This document shows positions 7,398-31,078 of a DNA stretch of 64,000 bases, in pieces (the first letter of the stretch is position 1; every line of letters begins with the position of its first letter). The notes under the pieces are model-generated. The model was not told the origin of the DNA. It did no database searches and was given only the letters and a program-made list of their open reading frames with translations. The stretch is from Flavobacterium acetivorans. Lineage in GTDB: Bacteria; Bacteroidota; Bacteroidia; Flavobacteriales; Flavobacteriaceae. The stretch lies in NCBI RefSeq assembly GCF_020911885.1, contig NZ_CP087132.1, positions 2,976,001-3,040,000 of the forward strand, in the 5' to 3' direction. The translations under genes and the position numbers were made by a program.

Positions 7398-7844
7398 ATG
7401 GACGGAGCATATATAGCACTTAGAGGATATAAATTTCAGTTTGATAGAACTATCTTGGAAATATTTAATAATTCGACCAAGACGATTTAAATAGAGCAAC
7501 TTCAAGATTACAGTTATGACGACTATTTAGTTCAGGTAAAATATCATAATACCGACAATCCATCTCAGCAAAAGCAGAAAATAAAAAAACCATTAGTTCA
7601 ACTCTTTGAACAATATATAAAGAACAACACAAAAAAATTCATTCTCTTTATTTACCTCAAGGGTGTCGCGCCATCAACGAAAACATTATCAGTCACCGAA
7701 CTTGATGCAATTCTTGGAAGAATTAAAAAATTCTCTGCGAATGACAAAGCTAACTTCATTAAATGCTTTACAATAATTTATGCTGGCGATTTTGAAAACC
7801 CATATTGTTGTGAATTGCTTTCAAAATTGTATTTTAGCTTATAA
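7398..7844 (+). pseudogene. Broken PD-(D/E)XK-like nuclease gene running into the CRISPR array
   Basis: From ATG 7398 the frame reads MDGAYIALRGYKFQFDRTIL, then after 30 codons meets an in-frame TAA (7488-7490) and continues as a clearly protein-like sequence (IEQLQDYSYDDYLVQVKYHN...). The E...D...QVK pattern resembles the D-(D/E/Q)xK core of Mrr/Cap4-type restriction-like nucleases, where an N-terminal nuclease is followed by an effector or sensor region. The frame then enters the first CRISPR repeat and stops within it (TAA 7842-7844). The gene is thus broken twice: by a nonsense codon and by loss of everything beyond codon about 136. The family call is tentative; the pseudogene status is firm. 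Confidence 0.5.
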
Positions 7845-10800
7845 TTCCCAACTACTGTTCCGAATTAAACATATTAAAAGCAGTTGTGAATTGCTTTCAA
7901 AATTGTATTTTAGCTTATAATTCCCAACTTCTTAAAGCTGATGAAGTAGAATGATCTGGTTGTGAATTGCTTTCAAAATTGTATTTTAGCTTATAATTCC
8001 CAACATAATAACTCGTGTAAATCACATCATAGGTGTTGTGAATTGCTTTCAAAATTGTATTTTAGCTTATAATTCCCAACGGTTCCTTCAGGTAATGCAT
8101 CGGTATTCGTGTTGTGAATTGCTTTCAAAATTGTATTTTAGCTTATAATTCCCAACAGTAGCCCGCGAAAACTACAAAGCGGCTACGTTGTGAATTGCTT
8201 TCAAAATTGTATTTTAGCTTATAATTCCCAACGGAGGATCAACAATCGAGCTTATCGATGCCGTTGTGAATTGCTTTCAAAATTGTATTTTAGCTTATAA
8301 TTCCCAACGTTTAATGGTGTTTTTAATCTTATTGCTCAGTTGTGAATTGCTTTCAAAATTGTATTTTAGCTTATAATTCCCAACGCCAGCGTCAACTCCT
8401 TGTTCTAGTATAGAGTTGTGAATTGCTTTCAAAATTGTATTTTAGCTTATAATTCCCAACCAAAAGACAGAATTGGAAATCATTAAAATGGTTGTGAATT
8501 GCTTTCAAAATTGTATTTTAGCTTATAATTCCCAACAAGACGGAGTTTTCTGTATGTCAACAGTTGGTTGTGAATTGCTTTCAAAATTGTATTTTAGCTT
8601 ATAATTCCCAACTTTTCCATGGTTATTGTGCTTTTCTTAGAGTTGTGAATTGCTTTCAAAATTGTATTTTAGCTTATAATTCCCAACAAAATTTCAACCC
8701 ACTTAGATCTTGCTGAGGTTGTGAATTGCTTTCAAAATTGTATTTTAGCTTATAATTCCCAACAGATGATGATGTTCGTTGCCTTTTCAACCAGTTGTGA
8801 ATTGCTTTCAAAATTGTATTTTAGCTTATAATTCCCAACCAACAGGATTTAAAGACTGCAAAGCCTTTTGTTGTGAATTGCTTTCAAAATTGTATTTTAG
8901 CTTATAATTCCCAACAAAAGATTATCTTTGAATTTTAGGTATGGTGTTGTGAATTGCTTTCAAAATTGTATTTTAGCTTATAATTCCCAACTGGAATACA
9001 GCAAGTAGAAACCACAGCTATGTTGTGAATTGCTTTCAAAATTGTATTTTAGCTTATAATTCCCAACAATATCAATGTGTTGTTGCGTGCTGATATAAGT
9101 TGTGAATTGCTTTCAAAATTGTATTTTAGCTTATAATTCCCAACAAATGACAGCATTACTAAGATTGAATATTAGTTGTGAATTGCTTTCAAAATTGTAT
9201 TTTAGCTTATAATTCCCAACACCTGATTGGGTCAAAACACTGTTACCTAAGTTGTGAATTGCTTTCAAAATTGTATTTTAGCTTATAATTCCCAACGGTC
9301 TTTTATACCATTTTCCAACTTCTAACGTTGTGAATTGCTTTCAAAATTGTATTTTAGCTTATAATTCCCAACAAACGTGGATTGCTACCAAAGGTTTAGA
9401 CTGTTGTGAATTGCTTTCAAAATTGTATTTTAGCTTATAATTCCCAACAGGCAAGTAAGGCGTAGAGCTGTAAGCGTTGTTGTGAATTGCTTTCAAAATT
9501 GTATTTTAGCTTATAATTCCCAACCAGAAGCATCCCATGTACCTCTATCGTTAAGTTGTGAATTGCTTTCAAAATTGTATTTTAGCTTATAATTCCCAAC
9601 CTATAAGGTGTTTTGTTGAAAGGATAACGGTTGTGAATTGCTTTCAAAATTGTATTTTAGCTTATAATTCCCAACAAATATAAATAGGACTTATCTATGA
9701 TAACTGTTGTGAATTGCTTTCAAAATTGTATTTTAGCTTATAATTCCCAACCGATACGCAGATTGGAACTCCTTTCACCGCGTTGTGAATTGCTTTCAAA
9801 ATTGTATTTTAGCTTATAATTCCCAACTAATAAATATAATGTTTACGCAAGAATCTAGTTGTGAATTGCTTTCAAAATTGTATTTTAGCTTATAATTCCC
9901 AACCGGAGAGATTTATTGGGCATCTGGCTCTTTGTTGTGAATTGCTTTCAAAATTGTATTTTAGCTTATAATTCCCAACCAATCCAATTTCTTTCAAATC
10001 GCCATCATGGTTGTGAATTGCTTTCAAAATTGTATTTTAGCTTATAATTCCCAACTCTATGATTATTTATTAACGTCAAAACCTCGTTGTGAATTGCTTT
10101 CAAAATTGTATTTTAGCTTATAATTCCCAACAAAATAAAAATAAATTCGAAGCTTACACCAGTTGTGAATTGCTTTCAAAATTGTATTTTAGCTTATAAT
10201 TCCCAACGTTTTGCGTTGGCTATACACTCTTCTTTTGGTTGTGAATTGCTTTCAAAATTGTATTTTAGCTTATAATTCCCAACTGGCTCGAACACAACAT
10301 CTACTGTAAGCGGGTTGTGAATTGCTTTCAAAATTGTATTTTAGCTTATAATTCCCAACTAACTGATACTTATAATGTTCGTTTATATGGTTGTGAATTG
10401 CTTTCAAAATTGTATTTTAGCTTATAATTCCCAACTTGATGTCCAGGATAGTTATTGCGGTTAGAGTTGTGAATTGCTTTCAAAATTGTATTTTAGCTTA
10501 TAATTCCCAACTGAAACGGCTACTAATACTCCTCATCCTATGTTGTGAATTGCTTTCAAAATTGTATTTTAGCTTATAATTCCCAACAGGTGCGGACGTA
10601 CCCGTTTGTGATATTGTTGTTGTGAATTGCTTTCAAAATTGTATTTTAGCTTATAATTCCCAACTCATCCGCTAATTGTTTGTAAAATTCTTTGGTTGTG
10701 AATTGCTTTCAAAATTGTATTTTAGCTTATAATTCCCAACAAACACATTGTATAAAGGTTCTACCTTAACGTTGTGAATTGCTTTCAAAATTGTATTTTA

Positions 10801-12867
10801 GCTTATAATTCCCAACAAAATTTCCCAATTCTAAAATAATTGCTTTGTTGTGAATTGCTTTCAAAATTGTATTTTAGCTTATAATTCCCAACTATTAGCG
10901 GTACAAATTCTATCTCTGTATTGTTGTGAATTGCTTTCAAAATTGTATTTTAGCTTATAATTCCCAACAATGAATTTAGTAAATCCATATAGATTTAGTT
11001 GTGAATTGCTTTCAAAATTGTATTTTAGCTTATAATTCCCAACTTACCTCCTATTTTTCTCTTTACCAGATGAGTTGTGAATTGCTTTCAAAATTGTATT
11101 TTAGCTTATAATTCCCAACTTTGAATTTTTAAATCAAATGATGATTTAGGTTGTGAATTGCTTTCAAAATTGTATTTTAGCTTATAATTCCCAACTTTCT
11201 TAAATGACTTTATAGAGCACCCGCAGTTGTGAATTGCTTTCAAAATTGTATTTTAGCTTATAATTCCCAACATCAGGACCGTTATAAATTGTCTGTTACT
11301 GGTTGTGAATTGCTTTCAAAATTGTATTTTAGCTTATAATTCCCAACCTGATCCTTTGTCAACTTATCAAAAGGTTTGTTGTGAATTGCTTTCAAAATTG
11401 TATTTTAGCTTATAATTCCCAACCAGCTACGCCCACACCAAATGATTTTATTGGTTGTGAATTGCTTTCAAAATTGTATTTTAGCTTATAATTCCCAACT
11501 TATTTTTAATATAAAGTTGTCTTCCATCAGTTGTGAATTGCTTTCAAAATTGTATTTTAGCTTATAATTCCCAACTCAAGTTTTTCATACTTCGTTAAAC
11601 TCTTAGTTGTGAATTGCTTTCAAAATTGTATTTTAGCTTATAATTCCCAACCTGTTGTGTGCTATATGGCCATAACGTGCAGTTGTGAATTGCTTTCAAA
11701 ATTGTATTTTAGCTTATAATTCCCAACCAGTAGTAACTGTAATAGTTCCTACATGGTGTTGTGAATTGCTTTCAAAATTGTATTTTAGCTTATAATTCCC
11801 AACAGCTTCGCCGGTGCAATGCTGGCTACTGGAGTTGTGAATTGCTTTCAAAATTGTATTTTAGCTTATAATTCCCAACAGTATCAGGATCCGGAAGTGG
11901 TAACTTGGTGTTGTGAATTGCTTTCAAAATTGTATTTTAGCTTATAATTCCCAACGCAAACACATTGAACTGCAAACGGAAATGAGTTGTGAATTGCTTT
12001 CAAAATTGTATTTTAGCTTATAATTCCCAACATTGGCTAAAAACATCATACCTGTTGATCCGTTGTGAATTGCTTTCAAAATTGTATTTTAGCTTATAAT
12101 TCCCAACCATAGAGCATAATAGGTTTTGTGCTATTTAGTTGTGAATTGCTTTCAAAATTGTATTTTAGCTTATAATTCCCAACGTGTAGAATTGGCTTTT
12201 GAAAGCGTTGGTTGTTGTGAATTGCTTTCAAAATTGTATTTTAGCTTATAATTCCCAACAGATTAAAAGATTAATCACCTCAGACACTCGTTGTGAATTG
12301 CTTTCAAAATTGTATTTTAGCTTATAATTCCCAACCGATTGTTGTAGAAAGATCTAAACCAGCATGTTGTGAATTGCTTTCAAAATTGTATTTTAGCTTA
12401 TAATTCCCAACTGTATTATTTATACTTATAGCTACACTATTGTTGTGAATTGCTTTCAAAATTGTATTTTAGCTTATAATTCCCAACCTCTTGGTTTTGA
12501 GTACTTAAACCCATTGAGTTGTGAATTGCTTTCAAAATTGTATTTTAGCTTATAATTCCCAACTAAAGCTTAGAATACGCTGATCATACACAAGTTGTGA
12601 ATTGCTTTCAAAATTGTATTTTAGCTTATAATTCCCAACGGAGCTGTTTTTGCTTCAAGGAAACGAACAGTTGTGAATTGCTTTCAAAATTGTATTTTAG
12701 CTTATAATTCCCAACATGCTTCTTATGAACTTAAACAGCTCTTTTGTTGTGAATTGCTTTCAAAATTGTATTTTAGCTTATAATTCCCAACATAAACTCC
12801 ATAAACCACAATGCAACCAAAGTTGTGAATTGCTTTCAAAATTGTATTTTAGCTTATAATTCCCAAC
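7807..12867 (+). CRISPR. CRISPR array, type II-C, 67 repeats and 66 spacers
   Basis: I counted 67 copies of a 46-bp repeat that begins GTTGTGAATTGCTTTCAAAA and ends AGCTTATAATTCCCAAC, and 66 spacers. Nearly all spacers are 30 nt; single 29- and 31-nt ones occur. Every repeat that I read is identical, including both terminal ones. The strand is set by the tracrRNA, whose anti-repeat at 19140-19157 pairs with the first 18 nt of the repeat in plus orientation, so crRNAs read toward the cas genes, as in the Neisseria II-C locus. Within each repeat TTG (positions 2-4), 19 nt, then TATTTTAG resembles the local promoter consensus with one mismatch, so repeats may each carry a weak promoter. Confidence 0.98.
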
Positions 12868-12892
12868 ATACCACGACTTAATTGTCTGGTAT
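12868..12892 (+). other. Hairpin immediately after the last repeat
   Basis: ATACCA-c-GAC, six-nt loop, GTC-TGGTAT forms a 9-bp stem with one bulge, starting at the first base after the last repeat. There is no T-run, so it is not a classical terminator. It might end or protect pre-crRNA, or be part of a leader. The rest of the gap to cas2 (12893-12993) is AT-rich with no gene. Confidence 0.35.
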
Positions 12893-12993
12893 ATTGGTAG
12901 TTATAGGTTAGTTTTGAAATTAAAAAAAGTGGCGTTTGTATATTGTTTTACAGTTAGTTATGCTTTTTTAAAATCCTGTCCTAAATCTTCTGA

Positions 12994-13341
12994 CTAGAAC
13001 AATTCCAATTGTTGGGAGGGTTTATCCGTTTCGACTTGCTTTTTTCCATAAAAAAGCTCCATCATCCCAAATTGTTTATCAGTTATTTGCATCACACCAA
13101 TCTTGCCATGTTCGGGCAGGCTGTTTCTTATTCTTTTGGAGTGTACTTCGGCATTTTCCCTGCTTGCACAAAAACGCATGTAGATGGAGAATTGGAACAT
13201 GGAAAACCCATCGTCTAATAACTTCTTCCGGAATCCAGAAGCTATTTTACGTTCCTTACGGGTTTCAGTAGGCAGGTCAAAAAAGACTAATATCCACAAA
13301 CTTCTATATTGATTTAAGCGGGTGTAATGATCATCATACAT
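12994..13341 (-). CDS. cas2: CRISPR-associated endoribonuclease/integration subunit Cas2
   Basis: A 115-residue Cas2 with the ferredoxin-like beta1 strand LWILVFFDLPT carrying the conserved Asp22, followed by a RKERKIASGFRKKLLDDGF helix and the FSIYMRFC strand typical of type II Cas2. It forms the Cas1-Cas2 spacer integrase. It overlaps cas1 by 8 bp and is the last cas gene before the array, so the operon order is cas9-cas1-cas2, the minimal type II-C set. Confidence 0.97.
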   Translation of the reverse strand: MYDDHYTRLNQYRSLWILVFFDLPTETRKERKIASGFRKKLLDDGFSMFQFSIYMRFCASRENAEVHSKRIRNSLPEHGKIGVMQITDKQFGMMELFYGKKQVETDKPSQQLELF

Positions 13342-14245
13342 AAATGGGGTATAAAATTTTCCTTGCCGAACCTTCGAAACAGGCTTGCAACGAATGCGTG
13401 GTTCTACTCATGGCGACCATCAAAGGACTGTTTTTTCCGTCTATAAATACATCGATGGTGGCAATATTCAATAACTGTTTTTTCATGGCAATGGTCAATT
13501 CGTCAACTACATCTTCGGTTTCCATGATGTGACAAACAATTAAATCGACATAAGGACGATAAGGTTCCATAATATCATCGGCTAAGCAATAGGCATTGTA
13601 TTTATTTCGGTGAAAAATACCCATCGTGGGCAACATTCCGGAGCTTACGATAGCTCGTGCCGTAATGGCTCTCAAAATAGCATAACCATAATTGAGTAAA
13701 TTGTTGGGAGGAACTCCTTTTTGTCCCCTATTGAAAGTTTCCTCACCCTTACAAAGAGTCGGGCTCAGACTTTGCCAATAAAAAACCGCTGCCCTAGATT
13801 CGTGATTGAGTGCATCTCCAGAAGTGACCTCCTTTGCCCAAAGTTCCATTTTTCGCATCGGGATGCCTTTTTCTTTGAGTAATCCCGCCTGATTCATGAT
13901 TTTGGCACTAATGGTTTGTTGCCACAAATTCTTTTTGAGTGGTGCAGATGCATTAATCTGATTTTTGAACCGTTCGCTTTGTTCGGTATGTCCGTCTAGC
14001 GGCATAAGCAATCCAATAGGCAAATGCTGATGGTCACAATTAATCAACGCCACGTTGTTGTGAATGAGTTTTTCCAGCAAACCATTGGTAATTGTGATTT
14101 GCTGGTTTTCTAATACGATTACACCAATGTCTTCAATAGCCACCGTCTTAGTTTCTTGCTCCTTGTCAGGATAAGAAATGACTATTTGTTCATTTTTGGT
14201 GCTCAAATAAGCAGGATTACCGAAGAAAAGGGTTCTCTTAATCAT
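13334..14245 (-). CDS. cas1: CRISPR-associated endonuclease Cas1, type II-C
   Basis: A 303-residue Cas1 integrase. The metal-binding residues are recognisable: Glu149 in NHESRAAVFYW, His212 in GIFHRNKYNAYCLADD, and Glu227 in DIMEPYRPYVD. Length and spacing fit the type II group. It inserts new spacers together with Cas2. It starts 410 bp after the cas9 stop, a larger gap than usual for an operon, and that gap holds three copies of a 14-bp direct repeat, so cas1-cas2 may have its own promoter. A fragment resembling its residues about 261-275 occurs in the duplicated noncoding sequence near 22.3-22.6 kb. Confidence 0.97.
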   Translation of the reverse strand: MIKRTLFFGNPAYLSTKNEQIVISYPDKEQETKTVAIEDIGVIVLENQQITITNGLLEKLIHNNVALINCDHQHLPIGLLMPLDGHTEQSERFKNQINASAPLKKNLWQQTISAKIMNQAGLLKEKGIPMRKMELWAKEVTSGDALNHESRAAVFYWQSLSPTLCKGEETFNRGQKGVPPNNLLNYGYAILRAITARAIVSSGMLPTMGIFHRNKYNAYCLADDIMEPYRPYVDLIVCHIMETEDVVDELTIAMKKQLLNIATIDVFIDGKNSPLMVAMSRTTHSLQACFEGSARKILYPIYV

Positions 14246-14344
14246 TTTTTTTAATTTAAAAATCCATAATTACTTTTAATGACCCACAAAATATTTTGGC
14301 TAAAGACTTCTGCACCCAATTTCTTTTTTTGTTGAATGAGGCAA

Positions 14345-14549
14345 AGCCCAATCCTATTGATTTTGAATTGCAATTATTTTTTGAATCGCCCCATTTTTAT
14401 TTTTTTATTAATGGAATGGGCTTAAGCCCAATCCTATTCATATTATGTTATAATCATTTTTATGAATTGCCTCAAGCTTTTGAATTGCCTCCAGCTTTAG
14501 CTACAGGAGAAAATAGGACAATACTATATGGCTTTAGCCCAATCCTATT
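14345..14549. repeat. Three 14-bp direct repeats between cas9 and cas1
   Basis: AGCCCAATCCTATT occurs at 14345-14358, 14425-14438 and 14536-14549. The middle copy overlaps a perfect palindrome GGGCTTAAGCCC (14418-14429). TGAATTGC, an 8-mer also in the CRISPR repeat, occurs about three times between them. The gap 14246-14655 has no supportable gene. The repeats may be regulatory sites for cas1-cas2 or a small tandem duplication. Confidence 0.5.
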
Positions 14550-14655
14550 CTTTTCTGAATTTATATCTGTCAATAAATTCATTATATTCATTTTCAAATG
14601 ATTGTTTGCTATAATGCTCCTCTTGGTTCTTAATGTAATTCCGAACTTTATCAAG

Positions 14656-17600
14656 TTAAGATTTAAACACTATACTCCCATCTAATTCCATTTCAAAATC
14701 GATTCCTTCGATTGCAAAACTCCAATTAGCTTGTCTTAAGCGTAAAAAAACTGGTTTTTCGCTTACATCAAAATATGCATATTCTTTGTTTTCTTTTTTT
14801 AAATCGGTATCAACACCAGCAGCCAAATGATGCTTAAATTTTATTCTACCATCGCCTTCAAACTGGTAAATTTTATACATTCTGTCAGAAAGTAGTTGCT
14901 TATGTTTTTTCTCTCTCATTAACTCTTTCAATTCTTCTATGCTTTCCTTGTAAAACAAAACTTTCTGCCCTGATTTTAATATAGCATAAAGTGGAATTGT
15001 TGATTTGCTTTTTCCCTTTCCAGTTTCAATTTGATTGTATAATGGAATTCCAAAATATTCTTTTTCGTTTTTAATTTTTAACGCTGCTACATGTCCGATG
15101 CTTAATATATTCATAACCTTAGCTTTCTCATTTTTATAGAATAAACACAACGTGTTTTCCCCGTTTTTTGCCAAAGTCTGTAACTTATATGTTTTGTCGG
15201 ATTTATAACTATGAGTATGAATTTTGACGGCAGTGCTATATTTAATGGTTTCTTTACATCTTATTCTACGAATTTTATTGACTATGTTTCCTTTTTTATC
15301 AAACATCCAAACTCCATTTGCTAATGCGGTTTTAAAATCAGATTCATTAACTTGTTTTTTTATCATTTCAAACAAAGCATTATCCACAATTATTTTTTCA
15401 ACTTCTTCCAATGTTTTAAAGCCGGGCGAATTAGCATCCTTTTTATAAATCAAATCTTTACGAATCACTACGAATGTTTCATCTTGTAGAATCATTTTTT
15501 TATTTTCATCAAATAAAATTTTATTGTCCTGATCTCTCAATGGCTGTTTTATAGCTCCGTATAGGGATTCTCCGTGTAATTGACCTCTAATCGTATCTCC
15601 TTTAGCAATTTTTGGAGTTTTTTTGCCATTTTTGTCTAATCGGTCATGCCATTCCCCCAGATTATCCTTATATTTTAAGTATACTATTTTTCCTTTTTTT
15701 CTGACTTTTTTATATGTCGATAATGAGGTTTTATTTTCTGAAAGGTTGTTTATCAAAATTTCTTTCTCGATAAATAAAACTTTAGAGGCTGAAAAATTTT
15801 CCCAATCTTTCGGTTTTTCATGATAAATTTTGCCAGTTTTTCTATCTTTTTCATCATTGTATTTCTGTAAAATTTTATCTCTTTCGTAATATGGTGGAAT
15901 TAAAGTTAAAATTGCGGCATCAATTGCATGGTGACTATGTACATTTCGATTTTTCTTTGCAAAAGGTAGCTTGATTTCATAAATCTCTTTAAAACAATTT
16001 ACAACTTCTGCTTTTTCTACAGCGACCTTTTTAAATACCGTTTTTAGATACGGTAATGCGTATTTCGTTATAATTTGAGTGTCTCTCAATTGACTATTTT
16101 TCCAACCAGATTTGTATTCTTCTAATGTAAAAGTGTGTAATTTGGATTTTAAATAATCCAAATCAAATTTAATCATGTGATAACGTTGGATACAAGCATC
16201 CTTTACATCTTTAGTTGATGCGTATGATGCTTTTTTCTTCCATTCATCATATGAATTTTGCAATTCTTCAATCTTTTTCCATTCAACTGATTCAACTTCT
16301 TTTCCTTTAATCTTCTTAATGGTTACTGTCCTTTTACCAAAAATAATTTCGATATTTTTTATGATTGGATTATAGCTTTTACCGTTAATAATTGCTTCTG
16401 TATTATAATTTGAAAGTTGCGTTGGAAAGAGTTTTCCTTTTACTATTCTATTGAAGTTTGTATCTGTTAAAGTTAGGTTTTTCAATTCACTATCAAATGA
16501 AATACTTGCAGGTACAGTATGCTCTATATCATAATAACTTCCATTAAAAATATCGGAACTATTAATCGTTTTTCCTGTATAAAGGCACTTTCTGGCTTGC
16601 TCTTCCCAAAGTCTGATTTTTTTTAGTAAAGTTTTATCGTTCTCATCAAAAGTCGTTTTGCATTCTTCGTTGATTTCTCTAATCTTTTTTCTAAAAACTT
16701 CATTTTCTTTTTCTCTTTCGTTATTCCATCTTTCAATAGCTTTTCTTTTATTGGCGTCGTTTAATTCACGAGCGATTTCTATAACTACACGAGTATCATC
16801 ATTTATTTTGTCCGTTTGTAATAAGTAATTTAATAATTGTTTGAGTTTCTGGAGCGATTTTAATGCCATAGGATTTTTAAAACCTTTGCTAATTGGTTCA
16901 GGGCTTCCCAATAACTTCAATGAGCGACCTTGATATTCCGCATTTGGATTTCTCTGTAAAAATTGTTGAATTTTATTTTCTGTTAAAAAAATACTATTAT
17001 CCTTTATTTTGTATTCTTGATATTCTGATGCAGCGGCATAGTTTTCTTGTTCAGACGGATGCCATAAATATTTTTTTCTTTCGAGAGGGATATCGTATGT
17101 GTCTTGTAAAAATTCAAATATTTGGTTGTGTAAACGGGGTTGCTCTACAAATATATTCTTTTTTGATAGGACGGATTTTCTTAAAAACTCTTTAAACTTA
17201 TTGTATATATAGTTTGTAGTTTCTAATTTCCTATCATTTTCAAAATCATTCCACGTCTTTTCTCCAATGACTTCTATAATCTTATTGTTTATTCTTTTTA
17301 ATTCAGAGGAGTCAAGTCCTCTGTCGACTTCTATTGAATACCGGTGTTCTTCGTTTAATTCAGTTTGAATAAGATTGTTTACTATATCATTTAATGTTTT
17401 TTGATCTTTGTTGTTTCTTATTATTTTATCAACTTCATCGGCAAAGTAGAGAGACAATCCTTCCGTAATTTCTTCCGAACCTAAAACTTTATATAAATTC
17501 GCCAAATATATGGCGTGACTATATAAAAAACCTTTCTGAAGAAATGGTAAAACTTTTTTGATAGCGGATAAGCTCAAAGTTGCGTATCCTTGGTTTAATT

Positions 17601-18918
17601 TTATTTTAGAAAATTTAGTTGCTTTTTCTTCATCTAAATTTAATTTTTCTAATGCAAATTTTTGAAGGTTTTCTTGTCCATCAAATGTATTTAAAACATG
17701 CCAAATGTCTTCAAAAGTAAATTTGTTGTCTGTTTTCTTTTTAGGTTGAGATTCCCTGTTATGAATGGATTTCCATTGGAATTTTTCTTTCCAATCTTCT
17801 CCTAAAATATCATCAAAAGATTTTAACAACTTAGCAGAAATAATTTTAGTTTTTGAATGAAATTTGGAGTTTATAACAGCTCCATCCTTTGCTAATTGTT
17901 TTAAAATTGAACTTAATTCAAACTCATTAGAGGATTTATAAAAAATAGGATAGATTTTTTCTTTCAAATATATATTTCTATCCATCCCTTCAGGGACTTC
18001 AATTTTTAAATTATTGATAAAAACCCAAGTCCTATATTCTTCATACAAGGGATGGCTTATTGGAGCTCTTTTTTTATTTTTTTCGTAAATACAAATCCCA
18101 ACAAGTCCTTTCTGAGTTCTTAAAGGTCTCTGCCAGATAATCGCTTTCCACAAAAGTTGGTAATCTTTTTCTATAATATTATGAATTTTGCAAATCTCCT
18201 TAAGTTCGTCTTCATAATCCCTTCTTAAATTATATCGCTGACGTATTCTGCCTCCATTTTCTTTTTGATAATAAAATAAAGCGGCTCCTAATGTTTTATG
18301 TTCAATGATATAATCTGCAATAACATTTCTGCCTTGTGTTCCTGTTTTTTCACTGCCATTTAGCATCGTTTTAGCTTCCTCTTCATCTCTTCCTCTAAAG
18401 CCTCGCCTTTGTACTAATTGATATAAAACTCTTCCTAAAACATGAGGATTGTTTTGAAATACACGCTTGTGTTTCTCTTCAATTATAGAAGCCCTAAAAA
18501 CATAGTAGCTTTCAGTATCATCCTTTTCGAACAAATGAAAATCAGGTTTTCCATCTCCATTAAAGTCAAAACGCAACCACTGGATAAATCTATTGGATTG
18601 AGGATATTCACGTCTCCCCCCTTTTTCATACTTTCGCCATTTATCTAAATCTTCTATGGATAAGGGACAAAGTTCTTTTTCAATAAGATATTCCAGTAAC
18701 TTCCATTTTCTGTACTTCTCTGCCTGATAATTTCTCCTTTTTCCTCTACTTTCGGTACGTTTTTGAACTTTAGGGAACTCATTTCCCTTTTCAGAAGCAA
18801 CCCCTTTGTCAAAAGTCAAAACCCCATAATCAGTTATTTGGTTGTCATCCATAGAAGTATTTCTGATACACCAACCAACTGAATTGGTGCCTAGATCGAT
18901 TCCGATTGTTTTGCTCAT
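14656..18918 (-). CDS. cas9: CRISPR effector nuclease Cas9, type II-C
   Basis: A 1420-residue RNA-guided DNA nuclease. All catalytic parts are intact: RuvC-I IGIDLGTNSVGW with Asp8; an arginine-rich bridge helix near residues 50-70 (RTESRGKRRNYQAEKYRKWK); RuvC-II VVIEIAREL with Glu714; the HNH domain YDIEHTVPAS with Asp797, His800 and probably Asn823; RuvC-III HSHHAIDAA with His997 and Asp1000. The C-terminal 420 residues hold the wedge and PAM-interacting domains. The size is at the large end of II-C and is typical of Bacteroidetes. With cas1 and cas2 downstream and no csn2 or cas4, the locus is II-C. The start follows a -7 element TATATTTG at 18943-18936. Confidence 0.98.
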   Translation of the reverse strand: MSKTIGIDLGTNSVGWCIRNTSMDDNQITDYGVLTFDKGVASEKGNEFPKVQKRTESRGKRRNYQAEKYRKWKLLEYLIEKELCPLSIEDLDKWRKYEKGGRREYPQSNRFIQWLRFDFNGDGKPDFHLFEKDDTESYYVFRASIIEEKHKRVFQNNPHVLGRVLYQLVQRRGFRGRDEEEAKTMLNGSEKTGTQGRNVIADYIIEHKTLGAALFYYQKENGGRIRQRYNLRRDYEDELKEICKIHNIIEKDYQLLWKAIIWQRPLRTQKGLVGICIYEKNKKRAPISHPLYEEYRTWVFINNLKIEVPEGMDRNIYLKEKIYPIFYKSSNEFELSSILKQLAKDGAVINSKFHSKTKIISAKLLKSFDDILGEDWKEKFQWKSIHNRESQPKKKTDNKFTFEDIWHVLNTFDGQENLQKFALEKLNLDEEKATKFSKIKLNQGYATLSLSAIKKVLPFLQKGFLYSHAIYLANLYKVLGSEEITEGLSLYFADEVDKIIRNNKDQKTLNDIVNNLIQTELNEEHRYSIEVDRGLDSSELKRINNKIIEVIGEKTWNDFENDRKLETTNYIYNKFKEFLRKSVLSKKNIFVEQPRLHNQIFEFLQDTYDIPLERKKYLWHPSEQENYAAASEYQEYKIKDNSIFLTENKIQQFLQRNPNAEYQGRSLKLLGSPEPISKGFKNPMALKSLQKLKQLLNYLLQTDKINDDTRVVIEIARELNDANKRKAIERWNNEREKENEVFRKKIREINEECKTTFDENDKTLLKKIRLWEEQARKCLYTGKTINSSDIFNGSYYDIEHTVPASISFDSELKNLTLTDTNFNRIVKGKLFPTQLSNYNTEAIINGKSYNPIIKNIEIIFGKRTVTIKKIKGKEVESVEWKKIEELQNSYDEWKKKASYASTKDVKDACIQRYHMIKFDLDYLKSKLHTFTLEEYKSGWKNSQLRDTQIITKYALPYLKTVFKKVAVEKAEVVNCFKEIYEIKLPFAKKNRNVHSHHAIDAAILTLIPPYYERDKILQKYNDEKDRKTGKIYHEKPKDWENFSASKVLFIEKEILINNLSENKTSLSTYKKVRKKGKIVYLKYKDNLGEWHDRLDKNGKKTPKIAKGDTIRGQLHGESLYGAIKQPLRDQDNKILFDENKKMILQDETFVVIRKDLIYKKDANSPGFKTLEEVEKIIVDNALFEMIKKQVNESDFKTALANGVWMFDKKGNIVNKIRRIRCKETIKYSTAVKIHTHSYKSDKTYKLQTLAKNGENTLCLFYKNEKAKVMNILSIGHVAALKIKNEKEYFGIPLYNQIETGKGKSKSTIPLYAILKSGQKVLFYKESIEELKELMREKKHKQLLSDRMYKIYQFEGDGRIKFKHHLAAGVDTDLKKENKEYAYFDVSEKPVFLRLRQANWSFAIEGIDFEMELDGSIVFKS

Positions 18919-18935
18919 AACTTAATATTTTAATT

Positions 18936-18972
18936 CAAATATAAAAATAAATTAAGGTTCTACATACATTAT
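18936..18972 (-). promoter_or_regulatory. cas9 promoter with an 11-bp match to the tracrRNA leader
   Basis: On the minus strand TATATTTG (18943-18936) fits the -7 consensus, 17 bp before the cas9 ATG. About 19 nt upstream, where the -33 box would be, lies ATAATGTATGT (18972-18962), identical to plus-strand 19098-19108 just before the degenerate repeat of the tracrRNA locus. There is no good TTG box. Confidence 0.5.
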
Positions 18973-18985
18973 AAAAAAGTATTTA

Positions 18986-18993
18986 TATCTTTG
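18986..18993 (+). promoter_or_regulatory. Possible -7 element for a long tracrRNA form
   Basis: TATCTTTG fits TAnnTTTG on the plus strand. Transcription from it would start near 19000 and pass through the degenerate repeat at 19109 into the tracrRNA. No -33 box is evident, so this is weak. Confidence 0.25.
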
Positions 18994-19108
18994 ATTTAGA
19001 AAGGTAAAAACATATAATGCATGATGTGTTGAAGTTAGCTTCCAAAACTAATTTCTGGTTTTTTCGACTTAGCCTTTTTTACATAACTATATTTTAAATA
19101 ATGTATGT

Positions 19109-19119
19109 GTTGTGAATTG
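19109..19119 (+). repeat. Degenerate CRISPR repeat upstream of tracrRNA
   Basis: GTTGTGAATTG is identical to the first 11 nt of the array repeat. Later positions (to about 19140) are only loosely similar. It can pair with the anti-repeat at 19147-19157 in the same transcript, with a loop of about 27 nt. Confidence 0.6.
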
Positions 19120-19127
19120 ATTTTTTA

Positions 19128-19135
19128 TATATTTG
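19128..19135 (+). promoter_or_regulatory. -7 promoter element of the tracrRNA
   Basis: TATATTTG is a perfect TAnnTTTG match. The predicted start at about 19139-19141 falls exactly at the first base of the anti-repeat, so a short tracrRNA would begin with the pairing region. A TTG lies at 19110-19112, spacing 15, shorter than the usual 19. Confidence 0.6.
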
Positions 19136-19138
19136 TAA

Positions 19139-19212
19139 CTTGAAAGCAATTCACAATAAGGCTATAAGCCGAAGAAATTCTTAAATCCTGCGTACTCCGT
19201 GGGATTTTTTTT
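19139..19212 (+). ncRNA. tracrRNA
   Basis: The RNA that pairs with crRNA and binds Cas9. The anti-repeat TTGAAAGCAATTCACAAT (19140-19157) is complementary to repeat positions 1-18, with a terminal G-U pair. It is followed by a nexus-like hairpin GGCT-ATA-AGCC (19160-19170), a short AAGAA/TTCTT stem (19172-19182), and a terminator stem AAATCC...GGATTT (19183-19207) ending in an 8-T run. The order anti-repeat, nexus and terminal hairpin is the normal tracrRNA layout. It is transcribed divergently from cas9. The 5' end is predicted from the -7 element. Confidence 0.9.
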
Positions 19213-19460
19213 ATTCGATATGTTAAATATAACATATTATTCCTACGAATTTTTATAAATCTCAAAAAAAATTGCAAGCGATTATTATATTTTACATCAG
19301 GAAGATTACTTTTTCTAATCAATGTTATTTTAAATTCACAAAATTCTGACTACTTTCAGGAAGAGTTTTTTTGTGAATCATTTGAAAAAATTGATGGCAC
19401 ATCATAACTTCAATATACAGCAATCAAAAAAAGTAAATTATCCTAAAATACTAAAAACAA

Positions 19461-19485
19461 AAAAGAGACCTAGAAAGTCTCTTTT
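19461..19485 (-). terminator. Terminator after the XRE gene
   Basis: AAAAGAGAC, 7-nt loop, GTCTCTTTT, 9-bp perfect stem with T-rich flank; 25 bp after the stop of the minus-strand XRE gene. The DNA from 19213 to 19509 holds nothing else I can support. Confidence 0.7.
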
Positions 19486-19509
19486 ATAATTAATTATGTC
19501 TTTTGTAAA

Positions 19510-19905
19510 TTATTTATCCTTCAACAACTTCTCTAAATAAGCTATTTTATCTTTTTCAGCCTGAACTAATCGTTCATAAAGCTCCACAAGTTTATCAATA
19601 GGATTAAAATTATAAACCGGACCAAAAGCACCTTGTCCATTACTGGCACTGTTATCATAAAAGTTATTGAAGAAATTGAAAACACTTTCCTCGGAGAAAT
19701 TCTTTATAGCTTCAGATGTAACTCCAAGAACTTTTGCAACTTCAAGTAATTTTTCATCTTCAATAGTTTCACTATTTTCCATATTAGAAACCGTTTGCTG
19801 ACTCACACCTAATGCAATTGCCAATGCTTCTTGCTTCATCTCGCGTAATTCCCTGATTCGGCTGATATTTCTGCCAATATGTTTTGGTTTTGTTGCTGTG
19901 TTCAT
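19510..19905 (-). CDS. XRE-family HTH regulator with C-terminal coiled coil
   Basis: A 131-residue regulator. The HTH spans about residues 11-65 (NISRIRELREMKQEALAIALGVSQQTVSNME). A flexible N/G/F-rich linker follows, then a C-terminal amphipathic helix (PIDKLVELYERLVQAEKDKIAYLEKLLKDK) suited to dimerisation. Proteins of this architecture are common in Bacteroidetes and their targets are mostly unknown. It is divergent from the HEPN gene pair. A -7 element TACCTTTG (19917-19910) lies only 4 nt before the ATG, so the mRNA may be leaderless. Confidence 0.85.
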   Translation of the reverse strand: MNTATKPKHIGRNISRIRELREMKQEALAIALGVSQQTVSNMENSETIEDEKLLEVAKVLGVTSEAIKNFSEESVFNFFNNFYDNSASNGQGAFGPVYNFNPIDKLVELYERLVQAEKDKIAYLEKLLKDK

Positions 19906-19909
19906 AATT

Positions 19910-19917
19910 CAAAGGTA
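19910..19917 (-). promoter_or_regulatory. -7 element of the XRE gene
   Basis: TACCTTTG on the minus strand, separated from the ATG by AATT. The transcript would begin at or next to the start codon. Confidence 0.4.
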
Positions 19918-20166
19918 TTAAATCGTTGCGAAATTTTTATTGGTAAAATACTAATGATGAATTGTGTAATACAATACCAATTGGTTGGGTACGGCTGGAA
20001 CTGTTCGGAACTTGCTATGACCTAAACAAAAATACAATTTTTCTAATAAATACTAACATTATCTACATATGAAAAAGAATAAAATATCCTTCACAATTAA
20101 TTTTTTTGGCAGGGTATTAAACAAAAATCAAATTTTCAAACAAGTATCAATTAAAAAATTAAAATT

Positions 20167-21018
20167 ATGAGTACAATTGATAACACAGGATTACAAATGA
20201 TAAGCAATATCATTAAGGAGAGTATTAGTACAAGTGGTATTTACTGTTTCGGAGAAAAAAGGCAAAGTCAAACCGTTCAAAATCCATTTCAAGCTACAGC
20301 TTCTGTTCAGCAAAAGCGTACGCATTTCTATTTGTTGGTTTTTACCAATGAATATGTAATCAATGCCATAGCAGATATTAGTCATACTATAAAGATCAAA
20401 TTAGGAGGTCGTTATACCGTTACTTTGTTGCTGCACAAAGCAACATCAGTACGGAATTTCACCCCACATCAATTATACTTCTATCATCAGGTTTTAACCA
20501 AAGGATATAAAGTTTACGAAAATGTAACCGTACCTCCAAACATCCCTTTTGATGAAACTCCAAAACGCAACATAAAGTCCATCCATTCCCATTGGAAAAA
20601 CAGAAATACAGTTGCAGAAACTTTCCTAGGAAACTTAGCTCATACTGACTATACCGATTACGGATTTGTTCAGGAATCCATGATACATATAGCTGTAGAA
20701 CAGACCTGCCTTGGACTTATAGATGTATTCTTGGGTTATCGTCCTGATCATTTTTCATTGCCTTATTTGTTTGAACTCTGTGAAATAGTCACACCACTAA
20801 CCTCGGATATATTTCCACGAACTTCTCCTGAAGACAAAAGGTTATTTAAGTTATTAAAAGCACATCCAAGCGAACTTCGCTGGGCAAATCCAAAATTATC
20901 ATGTAGACTAGATACTGAGGTTTTAGAAAAGAGAAGCAATCTTTTCCACAAAAGAGCCAGCGAATTGATAGCATCCGAATTAGAGCGTTTAGGAGATCTG
21001 TATATTAAAGAAACTTAA
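20167..21018 (+). CDS. HEPN-domain protein with degenerate nucleotidyltransferase-like N-terminus
   Basis: A 283-residue protein. Residues about 50-120 form an alpha/beta segment (HFYLLVFTNEYVINAIADISHTI... RYTVTLLLHKATSVRN) that resembles the nucleotidyltransferase part of MNT/HEPN proteins, but without the GS...DxD catalytic residues. Residues about 155-275 are helical and look like a HEPN domain (SMIHIAVEQTCLGLIDVFLGYRPDHFSLPYLFELC). Only one Rx4H pattern is seen (RNFTPH), and it is outside the helical part. It is followed after 11 bp by a second protein of the same general type, so the two form an operon. HEPN proteins are often RNA-cutting toxins or binding partners in defence; the role here is not shown. 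Confidence 0.6.
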   Translation: MSTIDNTGLQMISNIIKESISTSGIYCFGEKRQSQTVQNPFQATASVQQKRTHFYLLVFTNEYVINAIADISHTIKIKLGGRYTVTLLLHKATSVRNFTPHQLYFYHQVLTKGYKVYENVTVPPNIPFDETPKRNIKSIHSHWKNRNTVAETFLGNLAHTDYTDYGFVQESMIHIAVEQTCLGLIDVFLGYRPDHFSLPYLFELCEIVTPLTSDIFPRTSPEDKRLFKLLKAHPSELRWANPKLSCRLDTEVLEKRSNLFHKRASELIASELERLGDLYIKET

Positions 21019-21029
21019 AAAAAAACATT

Positions 21030-21872
21030 ATGTATCACAATATTTTAACTCAGCAAGATTGTCCAGAATATGATCCATTAAAAAAGGTAATTAAGCTACT
21101 GAGGGCGTTCATCAAAATCGATGCGATTTATTTTTCAAAGCACTTGGAAGAGCCGTCTAATAATGGTATTATTACGGTTCTTGTAAGTAAATCCAATCCG
21201 CATTATTACGAGGAGATTTATGATTTTTCATGGAAAATTATGAAGTCCTACCCTGAATTTTCGTTTTCCTTTTATGATGAAGCATGGTTAAAAGCAGAAC
21301 TAGAAGAAGGTAATCTTTATGCTATTATGAATTGCGATGATAGTCAACTCCTATATAGCGCTTCTAATTTCACGAGTGTAGTTGATTTCAAAAAAATAAA
21401 ACCTGAAAAATTGATAAAGAAGGTCACGAAAAGATTTAAGAGACACAATTTGGAAATTAATATTATTGGTCGGGATTTGAAATACTACAATACCGATGGA
21501 AGACATTTATCTGCTGCATATAATATGCATCAGCAATTTCGATACTTGTTTATAAATATTTCTTGGTTTTTGGCAGGAGATTATACAGGTACAGAAAGTC
21601 TTGAAGAGCAGGAAGAATATCTTCGTAAGTTTTCCATTGTGCTGGCTAATACATTTGACCCCGAAAAAAAAGAAGAGTGGTTTGTTTTAAAGCAATTAGA
21701 TGAAGCCCGTACAGCAATTCAATGTAACAAAGAAATAGAGCCAATTACTAAAGAAACTATCGATATAGCTTATGAAAAATTAGCAATACTTAAGGAAGAG
21801 GTCAGGAGAGTATTCGATAAATATATAAAAAGAGTAAAAATAAAATTAGAAGATTTAGTGAGTGTCAATTAA
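21030..21872 (+). CDS. HEPN/nucleotidyltransferase-like partner protein
   Basis: A 280-residue protein, 11 bp after the previous gene. The N-terminal half has alternating strands and helices (GIITVLVSKSNPHYYEEIYDFSWKIM) like a degenerate nucleotidyltransferase; the C-terminal half, from about residue 150 (RHLSAAYNMHQQFRYLFINISWFLAGDY), is helical and HEPN-like. I see no Rx4-6H RNase motif, so it may be a structural or inhibitory partner. The pair is divergently organised with the XRE gene. Domain calls are by fold pattern and are tentative; no close named family is recognised. Confidence 0.5.
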   Translation: MYHNILTQQDCPEYDPLKKVIKLLRAFIKIDAIYFSKHLEEPSNNGIITVLVSKSNPHYYEEIYDFSWKIMKSYPEFSFSFYDEAWLKAELEEGNLYAIMNCDDSQLLYSASNFTSVVDFKKIKPEKLIKKVTKRFKRHNLEINIIGRDLKYYNTDGRHLSAAYNMHQQFRYLFINISWFLAGDYTGTESLEEQEEYLRKFSIVLANTFDPEKKEEWFVLKQLDEARTAIQCNKEIEPITKETIDIAYEKLAILKEEVRRVFDKYIKRVKIKLEDLVSVN

Positions 21873-22242
21873 AAGGTAAGTGAGCTAAAAAAGTAAAGAT
21901 AAAAAATCAGGCCTTCTATTTTAGTATCGCCCTACTATTTTTAATTATAAAATCACGGGAGAATTTTAAGCGTTGGCCGCCGGGAGTGCCCCCCGAGTCG
22001 AGTGTGAAACACGAGCGGCTGGGGTCGCGATAGCGAAACCGAAACGAAGTGAGCTTCATCGAACACCAATAACAATAAGGGATTAGTGAGATAAATATTC
22101 CCGAGATTTTCGGGATAAAAATATTCAGGCTTGATTTTTTTGTTTCTTTTTTGATCAAGACAAATCGAAGATTATTTCATCTGTTCGCCTTTCAGGCTTG
22201 GGTCAGTGAGCACCGCTAAAAAAAACAAAAATTAAGCGAGCT

Positions 22243-22409
22243 AAAAAAGAAAATTGGTAACCTTAATTTTTTCTTTTAACAAAAACATCAATGGTAGCAA
22301 TATTAAATGACCTTTTATACTTCTACTCAATTAAATTCAAATTGCTGTTATTTCCGGGATTCAATTGTCCTTAGCTTCCGCAGTCGAGCGTCAAATGTTT
22401 GAAGAATAC
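22243..22409. repeat. 167-bp direct repeat, copy 1, with a cas1-like fragment
   Basis: Identical to 22523-22689 except for one base (C/T). On the minus strand, 22285-22308 matches cas1 (13449-13472) at 21 of 24 bases and encodes FNIATIDVFVKRKN, compared with Cas1 LNIATIDVFIDGKN. The frame is closed by stops on both sides. Confidence 0.7.
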
Positions 22410-22522
22410 GTAAAAAGAAAAGCTGTTTGAGCGAAGCGAGTTCTTTTCTTTTAGGATTCAAAAACTAATTTGACCGACGAGGAAGCTCAGACTTGATTTT
22501 TTTGTTTCTTTTTTGATCAAGC

Positions 22523-22689
22523 AAAAAAGAAAATTGGTAACCTTAATTTTTTCTTTTAACAAAAACATCAATGGTAGCAATATTAAATGACCTTTTATAC
22601 TTCTACTCAATTAAATTCAAATTGCTGTTATTTCTGGGATTCAATTGTCCTTAGCTTCCGCAGTCGAGCGTCAAATGTTTGAAGAATAC
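22523..22689. repeat. 167-bp direct repeat, copy 2
   Basis: Second copy, 280 bp downstream of the first. The cas1-like stretch is at 22565-22588. Ends coincide with GAAGAATAC. The recent, near-identical duplication suggests unequal recombination or an unrecognised repeat element. Confidence 0.7.
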
Positions 22690-23440
22690 CTAACCCGAGC
22701 GCAGCCTTCAAAGAACTCAACCATCTCACAACTCATAACTCAAATCTCACAACTTCTCACCCCGCCCTTAAATTAAAACATAGAAAAACAACGAAAAAAC
22801 GACGTGGCAGCAGTCCGCGAGTTGAGCCTGAAAGGCGAACGGCTCGGGCTGCGGAACATAGTTTTGAGGTAGTTTTTAAGTTTTTAATCCCGATAGATAT
22901 CGGGATCAGGCTTGATCTTTTTGTTACTTTTTCCATCAAGGGAAAAAGTAAAAATATATTCAAAGAAAAACAATGCTGTGCGAAGTCTCCCAACTCGTAC
23001 CGATGAGAAACACCAAGCTGTGCGAAGTCTCCCGCCTTCGTACATTCTCCGTCCTGTACCAGCATTTCTCCCAGCCCCCGCAATTCGAGGTCTCCTGACC
23101 CTCGATCCAAGAAGTGTTCGTCTCTACGCTACGCAAATGCCTCATGACCTTTGCGTTTTTTTTGTTCTTAAAAGCGGTAAGAATAATAAAAGTCTGCTGA
23201 CTGTTTACGTGAATGTTTTTAAAACTGAATGTAGGTATTGCGTATTCTAAACTTGAAAAACGCATTTGTTGACGGCGAATTCCAGTGATGTATTTTCTTC
23301 TTAAAACAAGAATAACCCTCTTTTTATACCGTTATTTTGCTATATTTGGAGCTATTACAATGAAGGTTATTTTATAGACTAACTTGTCCCTAAGCAATTG
23401 CAGCATCTGGAAAATAATCAAAACCATAATTTAACTACAA

Positions 23441-29954: not shown

Positions 29955-31022
29955 ATGCAAACTATTCTAGCCAACAACTACCCGATACATTTCAATGAAA
30001 AAGCATACGAAGCGCTTAATCTTCATTTAAAAGAAAATAAATATTCCAACCTATTTATTATTGTTGACAGCAATACCAATGAATTTTGTCTGCCACAATT
30101 CCTTCCATATTTAGAAACGGATTTGACTATAGAAATAATTGAATTTGAAGCTGGAGAAGAAAATAAAAATATCGAAACCTGCGTACAGATTTGGAACGTA
30201 TTAACTGAACTTGGTGCTGACCGAAAAAGCCTTGTCATCAACCTTGGTGGTGGCGTAGTGACTGATTTAGGTGGATTTGTCGCTTCGACTTTCAAGCGTG
30301 GCGTAGATTTTATTCATATTCCCACTACCTTATTATCTATGGTTGACGCATCTGTAGGCGGGAAAAACGGTGTTGATCTGGGAAATTTAAAGAACCAAAT
30401 TGGTGTTATTAATGTCCCTACTATGGTTCTTATTGATACCCATTATTTAGAAACCGTTCCGCAAAACGAAATGCGTTCCGGTCTTGCCGAAATGTTGAAA
30501 CACGGCTTGATATACGACAAGGAATATTGGGAGCAGTTTTTAGATTTAAAAGCGGTTGATTTTGCTGATTTTGACGAATTAATATACCGATCTGTTGTAA
30601 TCAAAAACGAAATCGTTACCCAAGACCCAACAGAAAAGAACATCCGAAAATCATTGAACTTTGGACACACGCTTGGTCATGCCATTGAAAGTTATTTTTT
30701 AGAGAATCAAAACAAGACAACCTTATTGCATGGCGAAGCCATTGCTGCAGGAATGATCTTGGAAAGTTATATCTCTTTGCATAAAAAATTAATCAACAAA
30801 GAAGAGTTCCTACAAATAAAAGCAACAATAAAGTCTATCTTTGATGATATCGTGTTTAGCGATAATGACCTTGCACCTATCCTTGAATTACTGATTCATG
30901 ATAAAAAAAACGAGTATGGTACTATTCAGTTTGCTTTAATACAAGGTATTGGCAAAATAAAGATAGACCAATCCGTTGAAAATGAATTAATTATCAAGGC
31001 GTTTGATGATTATAAATCTTAA
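29955..31022 (+). CDS. aroB: 3-dehydroquinate synthase
   Basis: A 355-residue NAD- and metal-dependent enzyme that turns DAHP into 3-dehydroquinate in the shikimate pathway. Landmarks are the NAD-binding GGGVVTDLGGFVASTFKRGVDFIHIPTTLLSMVDASVGGKNGVD (about residues 97-140), SGLAEMLKHGLI with the metal ligand Glu, and the metal-binding histidines in NFGHTLGHAIE and LLHGEAIAAGM. Divergent from proline dehydrogenase. Full length and intact. Confidence 0.97.
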   Translation: MQTILANNYPIHFNEKAYEALNLHLKENKYSNLFIIVDSNTNEFCLPQFLPYLETDLTIEIIEFEAGEENKNIETCVQIWNVLTELGADRKSLVINLGGGVVTDLGGFVASTFKRGVDFIHIPTTLLSMVDASVGGKNGVDLGNLKNQIGVINVPTMVLIDTHYLETVPQNEMRSGLAEMLKHGLIYDKEYWEQFLDLKAVDFADFDELIYRSVVIKNEIVTQDPTEKNIRKSLNFGHTLGHAIESYFLENQNKTTLLHGEAIAAGMILESYISLHKKLINKEEFLQIKATIKSIFDDIVFSDNDLAPILELLIHDKKNEYGTIQFALIQGIGKIKIDQSVENELIIKAFDDYKS

Positions 31023-31065
31023 TTATTTTTTTTAAAAAGGATTGCATTAGGTATATATTATTTTT

Positions 31066-31073
31066 TACATTTG
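31066..31073 (+). promoter_or_regulatory. Promoter of the small gene at 31079
   Basis: TACATTTG, preceded by TTG at 31042-31044 with 21 nt between. The predicted start lies at or beside the ATG at 31079, so the transcript is probably leaderless, or the true coding start is downstream. Confidence 0.5.
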
Positions 31074-31078
31074 CCGCA

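Follow-up and report, generated by a model that had tools for sequence, protein, structure and literature searches.

Does a type II-C Cas9 hold down its own promoter through a partly matching natural guide RNA, as the type II-A Cas9 of Streptococcus pyogenes is described to do with tracr-L, whose 11-nt match allows binding to the cas promoter without cutting (PMC8616872, PMC11417352)? The question is raised by a cas9 locus of Flavobacterium acetivorans in the window, the 64,000-nt stretch of contig NZ_CP087132.1 analyzed here. The window's cas9 is an open reading frame of 1420 aa (14656 to 18918, minus strand) that scores 297.8 bits against NCBIfam TIGR01865 (Cas9; cut-off, 100); in its product, HNH_4 passes the Pfam cut-off and RuvC_III falls just short. 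This product is the proposed effector, and cas9 is also the gene proposed to be repressed. A type II cas1 (13334 to 14245, minus strand; TIGR03639 cas1_NMENI, 302.5 bits; cut-off, 120) and cas2 (12994 to 13341, minus strand; TIGR01573, 68.4 bits; cut-off, 24.5) adjoin it, followed by a CRISPR array (7807 to 12867, plus strand) of 67 repeats of 46 nt. The repeat read off the array is GTTGTGAATTGCTTTCAAAATTGTATTTTAGCTTATAATTCCCAAC. Since the run from cas9 through cas1 and cas2 to the array leaves no room for csn2 or cas4, the gene set is that of type II-C and not II-A. The array is the source of canonical crRNAs and of two spacers that are informative about the protospacer-adjacent motif (PAM).

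A first-pass annotation of the window, made from the letters alone, had proposed a natural single-guide RNA aimed at the cas9 promoter, and every sequence that it named was recovered in place. Upstream of the tracrRNA lies a repeat-like segment, GTTGTGAATTG (19109 to 19119, plus strand), identical to the first 11 nt of the CRISPR repeat; because the array repeat begins with GTTGTGAATTGCTTTC, this segment is the exact 5' end of the repeat. The 20 nt preceding it (19089 to 19108) end in the guide seed ATAATGTATGT (19098 to 19108, plus strand), whose 11 nt are the same as those of a target on the minus strand (18962 to 18972). The target lies 18 nt upstream of a -7 box, TATATTTG (18936 to 18943, minus strand), assigned by sequence to the cas9 promoter and of the Bacteroidetes type, for which TAnnTTTG is the reported promoter motif (PMC10309648). 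The target thus occupies the -33 region of the cas9 promoter. On its PAM side, the target is flanked by AGAACC (18956 to 18961, minus strand), with CC at +5/+6. A divergent -7 box, TATCTTTG (18986 to 18993, plus strand), is the putative promoter for a long guide RNA, which would start near 18998, and a further TATATTTG box (19128 to 19135, plus strand), between the repeat-like segment and the anti-repeat, is likely to be the promoter of a short tracrRNA. The anti-repeat GAAAGCAATTCACAAT (19142 to 19157, plus strand) ends in 11 nt, CAATTCACAAT (19147 to 19157), that pair with the repeat-like segment. The tracrRNA tail (19160 to 19212, plus strand) contains the nexus GGCTATAAGCC (19160 to 19170) and a terminator hairpin with a T-run (19183 to 19212). 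The CC after the target, the box at 19128 to 19135, and a folded leader at 18998 to 19079 are additions to what had been annotated. A 131-aa small open reading frame (19510 to 19905) that resembles a helix-turn-helix regulator by eye adjoins the tracrRNA, and a lone GTTGTGAATTG followed by CTATTAAG is found far from the array (1136 to 1146).

The guide seed sequence occurs exactly twice in the window, at 19098 to 19108 on the plus strand and at 18972 to 18962 on the minus strand. Extended by NNNNCC (ATAATGTATGTNNNNCC), it has one site in the 3.56-Mb genome, the cas9 promoter. When the 160 nt from cas9 to the 30-nt guide segment were subjected to dinucleotide shuffling, 0 of 4000 shuffles reached a match of at least 11 nt. 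The 11-nt identity is not due to chance. The guide has the sense-strand sequence of cas9 and is complementary to the template strand at the cas9 promoter; as read from the sequence, the layout of guide and target is Cas9 protospacer geometry with the PAM towards cas9. Since the repeat-like segment shows no CC at +5/+6, the guide would leave its own gene untouched. The fold of the repeat-like segment with the anti-repeat is sgRNA-like, with z scores of -4.08 (19089 to 19213) and -4.99 (18998 to 19213), and the pairing of 19109 to 19119 with 19147 to 19157 upholds the single-guide architecture suspected in the window. The likeness to the tracr-L layout held for the most part: the 11-nt match, the flank, and the fold in cis agree with it, whereas the leader of about 100 nt before the guide and a split form in relatives do not. 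RNA processing could still give a guide at the 5' end.

Cas9 was searched for in 398 genus, 397 family, and 395 order genomes (overlapping sets) and in 23, 246, 1, and 173 genomes around other centers (again overlapping); one additional contig scan gave 2 loci. We scanned 35 cas9-type loci, counting the window, for repeat-like segments preceded by a 30-mer with a match: 17 from the clade of the window's Cas9, 7 more distant, and 11 from a far clade with the same kind of repeat. Ten of these last 11 have a tblastn match to the window's Cas9 at 1e-5, and L186, which has none at that threshold, was retained for its tracrRNA and array. Left out before counting were L010 and L068, where the 5' end of cas9 is missing, the duplicates L072 (of L009), L094 (of L093), and L097 (of L087), and L084, whose tracrRNA-side intergenic region is identical to that of L085. 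The element was found in 7 of 17 window-clade, 0 of 7 more distant, and 1 of 11 far-clade loci, and its absence from 27 of the 35 marks it as a gain/loss trait. Across the 35 loci, all seven exact repeat 5' ends (GTTGTGAATTG) that lie outside arrays in tracrRNA orientation are abutted by an 11- to 12-nt cas9-sense match. Among nine segments with two mismatches, one, in L048, has a cas9-sense match reaching 11 nt; it stands at the same place as the window's, and by this position we judged it to be real. The repeat-like segment and its match are conserved in related loci (the seven exact ends and L048), the comparison by which the first-pass annotation had proposed to refute its own reading. Segments with three mismatches gave one such match in 69 (counted by hand), in L181; that segment lies in the tracrRNA tail, its partner was taken to be cas9 coding sequence, and we judged the match to be background, which means that single matches are no proof.

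The guides are ATAATGTATGT in the window, GTAATATATGT in L048, TTAATATGTAA in L052, TTATCATATAT in L081, TTAGTGTATGA in L093, and TTATTATATAA in L083 (11 nt each) and GCAGTGTGTTGT in L049 and TTACAATAGATA in L179 (12 nt each, the longest). All eight matches are on the cas9-sense strand. Because the eight guides differ and each matches its own region, guide and target covary. In a matrix of seven guides against seven regions, each guide matched its own region over 11 to 12 nt, and the best foreign match was 9 nt. Of 4000 shuffles per locus, the number reaching the observed length was 0 for the window, L049, and L081, 1 for L179, 2 for L052 and L093, 3 for L048, and 9 for L083. Other matches of at least 11 nt were a 13-nt match on the same strand in L050, at a three-mismatch segment, and duplicate spacers in L180; among segments with at most 3 mismatches, L178 also shows a same-strand match of 11 nt, and the repeat-like segment scan gave additional 9- to 10-nt matches in L177 and L179. 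In each of the eight loci, as judged by eye, 14 to 18 nt separate the target from a -7-like box downstream of it, which puts the target over the -33 region; the box of L081 is poor. In L083, there are 229 bp between the target and the start codon of cas9; the target lies on the far side of the tracrRNA, and its box is oriented towards cas9. A looser repeat pattern gave no convincing element in 38 more distant stretches (L014 to L040, L043, L044, L047, and L060 to L067), which overlap other loci and include several with 36-nt repeats. Their sole match of at least 10 nt, a 13-nt same-strand match in L038, adjoins the masked guide and was set aside as background.

The eight loci with the element show two architectures. 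The fused, sgRNA-like form (window, L048, L049, and L081) has a TATATTTG box, the same in all four, between the half repeat and the anti-repeat; judging by this arrangement, the long RNA would be a single guide and the short RNA a plain tracrRNA. The split, crRNA-like form (L052, L093, L083, and L179) continues from the half repeat into a hairpin and T-run, a terminator that is absent from this position in the four fused loci, and the crRNA-like RNA would need tracrRNA in trans. Three split loci (L052, L093, and L083) belong to the window's Cas9 clade, and L179 is distant. In a Cas9 tree of 22 rows, without L179, these three fall in an 8-row group of family f5, which is Weeksellaceae by its single named row; the fused L081 is the first branch of that group, and rows without the element are interspersed. 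This tree of 22 rows does not settle whether the fused or the split form is older. As separate observations, the array repeat of L179, a genus genome, is letter for letter that of the window, alongside a very different Cas9 and a tracrRNA tail, AAGGATTATTCCGTTGTG, that also differs. Upstream of cas9, L053, L055, and L058 have another anti-repeat close to the first tracrRNA, with a tail like that of the other clade, which gives the impression of a locus that formerly served two types of Cas9. Variants of ACGGTTTTCC, or the reverse GGTTTTCCGTA, precede the tracrRNA -7 box in L053, L082, L083, L093, L095 to L097, and L180 to L184 and are possibly an operator or a -33 element.

The folded 5' leader (18998 to 19079, plus strand) was recognized by covariation and fold and comprises stems P1 (18998 to 19004 with 19073 to 19079), P2 (19010 to 19017 with 19022 to 19029; UGCA loop), and P3 (19031 to 19038 with 19048 to 19055; CUUCCAAAA loop). 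Boxes similar to the divergent -7 box occur in the six other clade loci with the element, and the distance from the end of this box to the end of the guide is 96 to 131 nt in the seven. All three stems are present in the window, L048, L052, L093, and L083, with UGCA or CCGG as the loop of P2 and with a P3 of 8 positions whose 9-nt loop holds UCCAA. L049 has P1 and P2 without P3, L179 has P3 without P2 in the aligned register, and L081 has no leader fold. Parts of the leader covary across seven loci. In a hand alignment fitted to the structure and made without L179, 121 of 130 P1-P3 cells were paired, compared with a mean of 93.7 (maximum, 114) when the 3' arms were re-dealt, and 0 of 2000 such trials were as high. 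In the MAFFT alignment A2 (six rows, with L179 and without L049), 86.5% of the P2 and P3 cells were paired, against 61.8% in shuffled and 37 to 47% in slid alignments; 13 of 16 pairs were changed on both sides, and one of the measures, further pair types, was equalled in 18 of 500 shuffles. Having no P3, L049 is not part of A2, A3, or the P3 counts; L081, whose leader could not be aligned, enters none of the leader counts, and P1 was not counted for L179. A pattern scan found P3 with UCCAA ahead of the repeat-like segment in six loci; two more matches run directly into array repeats. Conservation of the stems is an argument for the leader being produced as RNA. When the whole RNA was folded, P2 and P3 formed and P1 did not; in that model the 3' arm of P1 (19068 to 19076) pairs with the nexus region of the tracrRNA (about 19158 to 19168), which may constitute a switch. 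An Rfam search over 9000 to 23000 gave nothing for the leader, and its 51 matches (E up to 1) were all CRISPR-DR50.

In the seven clade loci, the target is followed by the hexamers AGAACC, AAACCC, ATGACC, TGAACC, TTAACC, TAAACC, and ACAACC. CC at +5/+6 is present in all seven window-clade loci with the element, on a strand of which C makes up only 8 to 13%. As an independent check, we compared the array of the window with 169 genomes of the genus and retrieved 20 stretches surrounding short matches. Spacer 6 matches contig 15 of one genome (G113) at 28 of 30 bases, followed by ACAACC. For the adjacent spacer 7, a match with one extra base and a single mismatch lies 9 kb from there on this contig, and its flank is ACTACC. 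Among the genes of this stretch are one of the ArdC anti-restriction type and one that is endolysin-like, contents that might be those of a mobile element. The predicted PAM of the window's Cas9 is NNNMCC. Flanks that do not fit are ACCGGT (a weak gapped match of spacer 9), GTTTAG (a partial match, also of spacer 9), ACTTCT (a partial match of spacer 40), and GTTGTT (spacer 16 in L147, 25 of 30). When the L094 array, from the genome of L093, was compared with 92 genomes, one spacer, taken from among the matches listed, matched its own genome (G1361, contig 9) at 30 of 30 and G1351 at 29 of 30 positions, with the flank CAAAAT and not NNNNCC; this self-match is tolerated by the cell, may well lack a PAM, and does not support the motif. 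The L048 array, compared with 101 genomes, matched mainly other arrays, with two weak spacer-length matches (E, 8e-4). A phage collection held no convincing protospacer for the arrays of the window, L048, L049, L053, and L179, the matches in it being phage-borne repeats or unrelated phages at weak E values, and an IMG/VR scan with 26 nt of spacer 6 gave no match. In L179, whose Cas9 (1539-aa frame) is far from the window's, the target flank is AGAAATAA / AGAAATAAAT and reads NNNNNTAAA. The same motif is given for the Cas9 of Flavobacterium columnare (PMC8092290), to which the L179 flank is likened by motif only.

The sequences, the match and its covariation, the conserved CC, the two spacer-target flanks, and the RNA stems support the following reading: Cas9 very probably represses its own promoter via a partly matching guide, in the manner of tracr-L, in a type II-C system and with two architectures. 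From this evidence, and by analogy with tracr-L, we infer transcription, loading, binding, the absence of cleavage, repression, and competition with crRNAs. A long RNA, a natural single-guide RNA in its make-up, would be transcribed away from cas9, starting from TATCTTTG (18986), and would comprise in order the folded leader, the guide, half a CRISPR repeat, the anti-repeat, and the tracrRNA tail. Cas9 bound to it would recognize NNNMCC beside the -33 region of the cas9 promoter, where the 11-nt pairing should suffice for binding and not for cutting. RNA polymerase would be blocked, and Cas9 would thereby keep its own level down. The short tracrRNA from the box at 19128 to 19135 and the crRNAs would serve immunity and compete for Cas9, so that repression would report free Cas9. 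In the relatives with a stand-alone crRNA-like element, that RNA would have to pair with tracrRNA in trans.

Other readings of the 11-nt identity have to be weighed against self-repression. It might be a -33 element or operator shared by two promoters under one sigma factor or regulator, with no guide RNA involved. The distance from ATAATGTATGT to the TATATTTG box after it is indeed strikingly similar in the two places, 18 nt at cas9 and 19 nt at the short tracrRNA, and the two -7 boxes are identical. However, the sequence varies between loci (GCAGTGTGTTGT, TTAGTGTATGA, and TTACAATAGATA) while remaining identical within each locus, and what comes after the copy in the split loci (L052, L093, L083, and L179) is a terminator and not a promoter. 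We rejected a shared element on these two grounds and consider it very unlikely; it also leaves unexplained why CC stands at +5/+6, why the copy abuts exactly on the 5' end of the repeat, and why the length is 11 to 12 nt. It is very unlikely, too, that the long or stand-alone RNA is mainly a decoy or reservoir for Cas9, or a scaRNA-like regulator, with repression of cas9 a minor effect. Such a role would have a parallel in the scaRNAs of Francisella novicida (II-B) and Neisseria meningitidis (II-C), described as acting on other genes (PMC13431127), but the cas9 promoter is the sole site in the genome with the 11-mer and NNNNCC, and guide and cas9 target covary across loci.

The element could also be the remains of a mini-CRISPR, an old self-matching spacer-repeat unit near the tracrRNA whose transcription has been lost. 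Array units show the same spacer-repeat order, and 27 of the 35 scanned loci are without the element. Decay is nevertheless highly improbable, since guide/target identity is kept in loci whose Cas9 is 61 to 74% identical to the window's and the leader stems are kept through compensatory changes, which requires selection. The most improbable of these readings is antisense control of cas9 mRNA by a divergent transcript: the RNA is indeed divergent to cas9 and starts close by, but its guide has the cas9 sense-strand sequence and is therefore unable to pair with cas9 mRNA, and the target is upstream of the predicted start of the cas9 transcript.

Self-repression by the guide RNA, as proposed here, resembles tracr-L in having two tracrRNA forms, a long one with an upstream promoter and, judging by sequence, a short one with an internal promoter, an 11-nt match to the cas promoter beside a PAM, and a single-guide fold. 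It differs in its type II-C Cas9, in the other, predicted PAM (NNNMCC), in the folded leader of about 100 nt before the guide, whereas the guide of tracr-L is at the 5' end, and in the four relatives that have the element as a separate unit with its own terminator, known here from sequence. The CRISPR-derived regulatory RNAs of Shmakov (2023) are reportedly mostly of type I, with others of type V-A. CreR cas-regulating RNAs are described for types I-B, I-E, and V-A (PMC13131331); like them, the RNA here would be crRNA-like in its partial match to the effector promoter, the guide matches the cas9 promoter region in part in all eight loci with the element, and the split loci L052, L093, L083, and L179 are the ones that resemble CreR. 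In contrast to CreR, the system is type II and needs tracrRNA in trans, only half a repeat precedes the terminator, and sister loci have the guide fused to the tracrRNA. With the scaRNAs of Francisella II-B and Neisseria II-C (PMC13431127), the element shares being a CRISPR-linked small RNA that would work with Cas9 on host genes. The scaRNAs, however, are reported there to act on other genes; the sole site with the exact 11-mer and NNNNCC here is at cas9. The Neisseria scaRNA is reported to act post-transcriptionally on efeO mRNA and to be bound by Cas9 in vitro independently of tracrRNA and PAM (PMC13431127). Racr and other viral solitary repeat units (PMC10651486) likewise consist of a lone repeat-like unit outside an array, but Racr is presented as viral and directed against the host, and the present element is chromosomal, lies in the cas9-tracrRNA region, and has a guide to cas9.

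A 2021 review states that extended tracrRNA is absent from subtypes other than II-A (PMC8616872), and a literature search of titles and abstract openings found no II-C or Bacteroidota case of RNA-based cas9 self-repression. What is most likely new here is RNA-guided self-repression of a Cas effector in type II-C, with two architectures and a folded leader. We lean somewhat towards a broader reading, in which the eight loci would represent one II-C family of cas9-controlling RNAs that switches between stand-alone crRNA-like and tracrRNA-fused forms, joining CreR-type and tracr-L-type control in one lineage. The leader with its conserved UCCAA loop would be a control element, through processing, stabilization, or sensing, that sets the strength of Cas9 self-shutoff, and the family would work with two far-diverged Cas9 clades, one repeat family, and different target flanks. 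If self-repression is true, control through an 11- to 12-nt guide would be a solution to which Cas9 systems have come repeatedly, type II-C would offer a natural single-guide RNA whose PAM is predicted, and the presence of both architectures in related genomes would open the origin of tracr-L-type RNAs to testing. Compensatory mutants are already at hand in the covarying guide/target pairs.

Lone repeat units were also seen in phages and viral contigs. Riemerella phages (L148, RAP44, 30800 to 32500; L149, CRP19; matches H66 to H77) carry a mini-CRISPR with II-C-type repeats, consisting of a promoter-like partial repeat, one spacer, and a terminator-like hairpin; that of CRP19 has three spacers, two of them identical. 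These mini-CRISPRs could be aimed at host or rival sequences. Solitary II-C-type repeats occur in the viral contigs L190, L192, L193, L194, and L195. The 30-mers upstream of the viral solitary repeats gave matches of 9 to 12 nt in the long stretches searched, which is at chance level, and none was convincing. The repeat of L194 is nearly that of the window, and in L195 the 5' part of the repeat runs into a hairpin and T-run in the manner of the split module.
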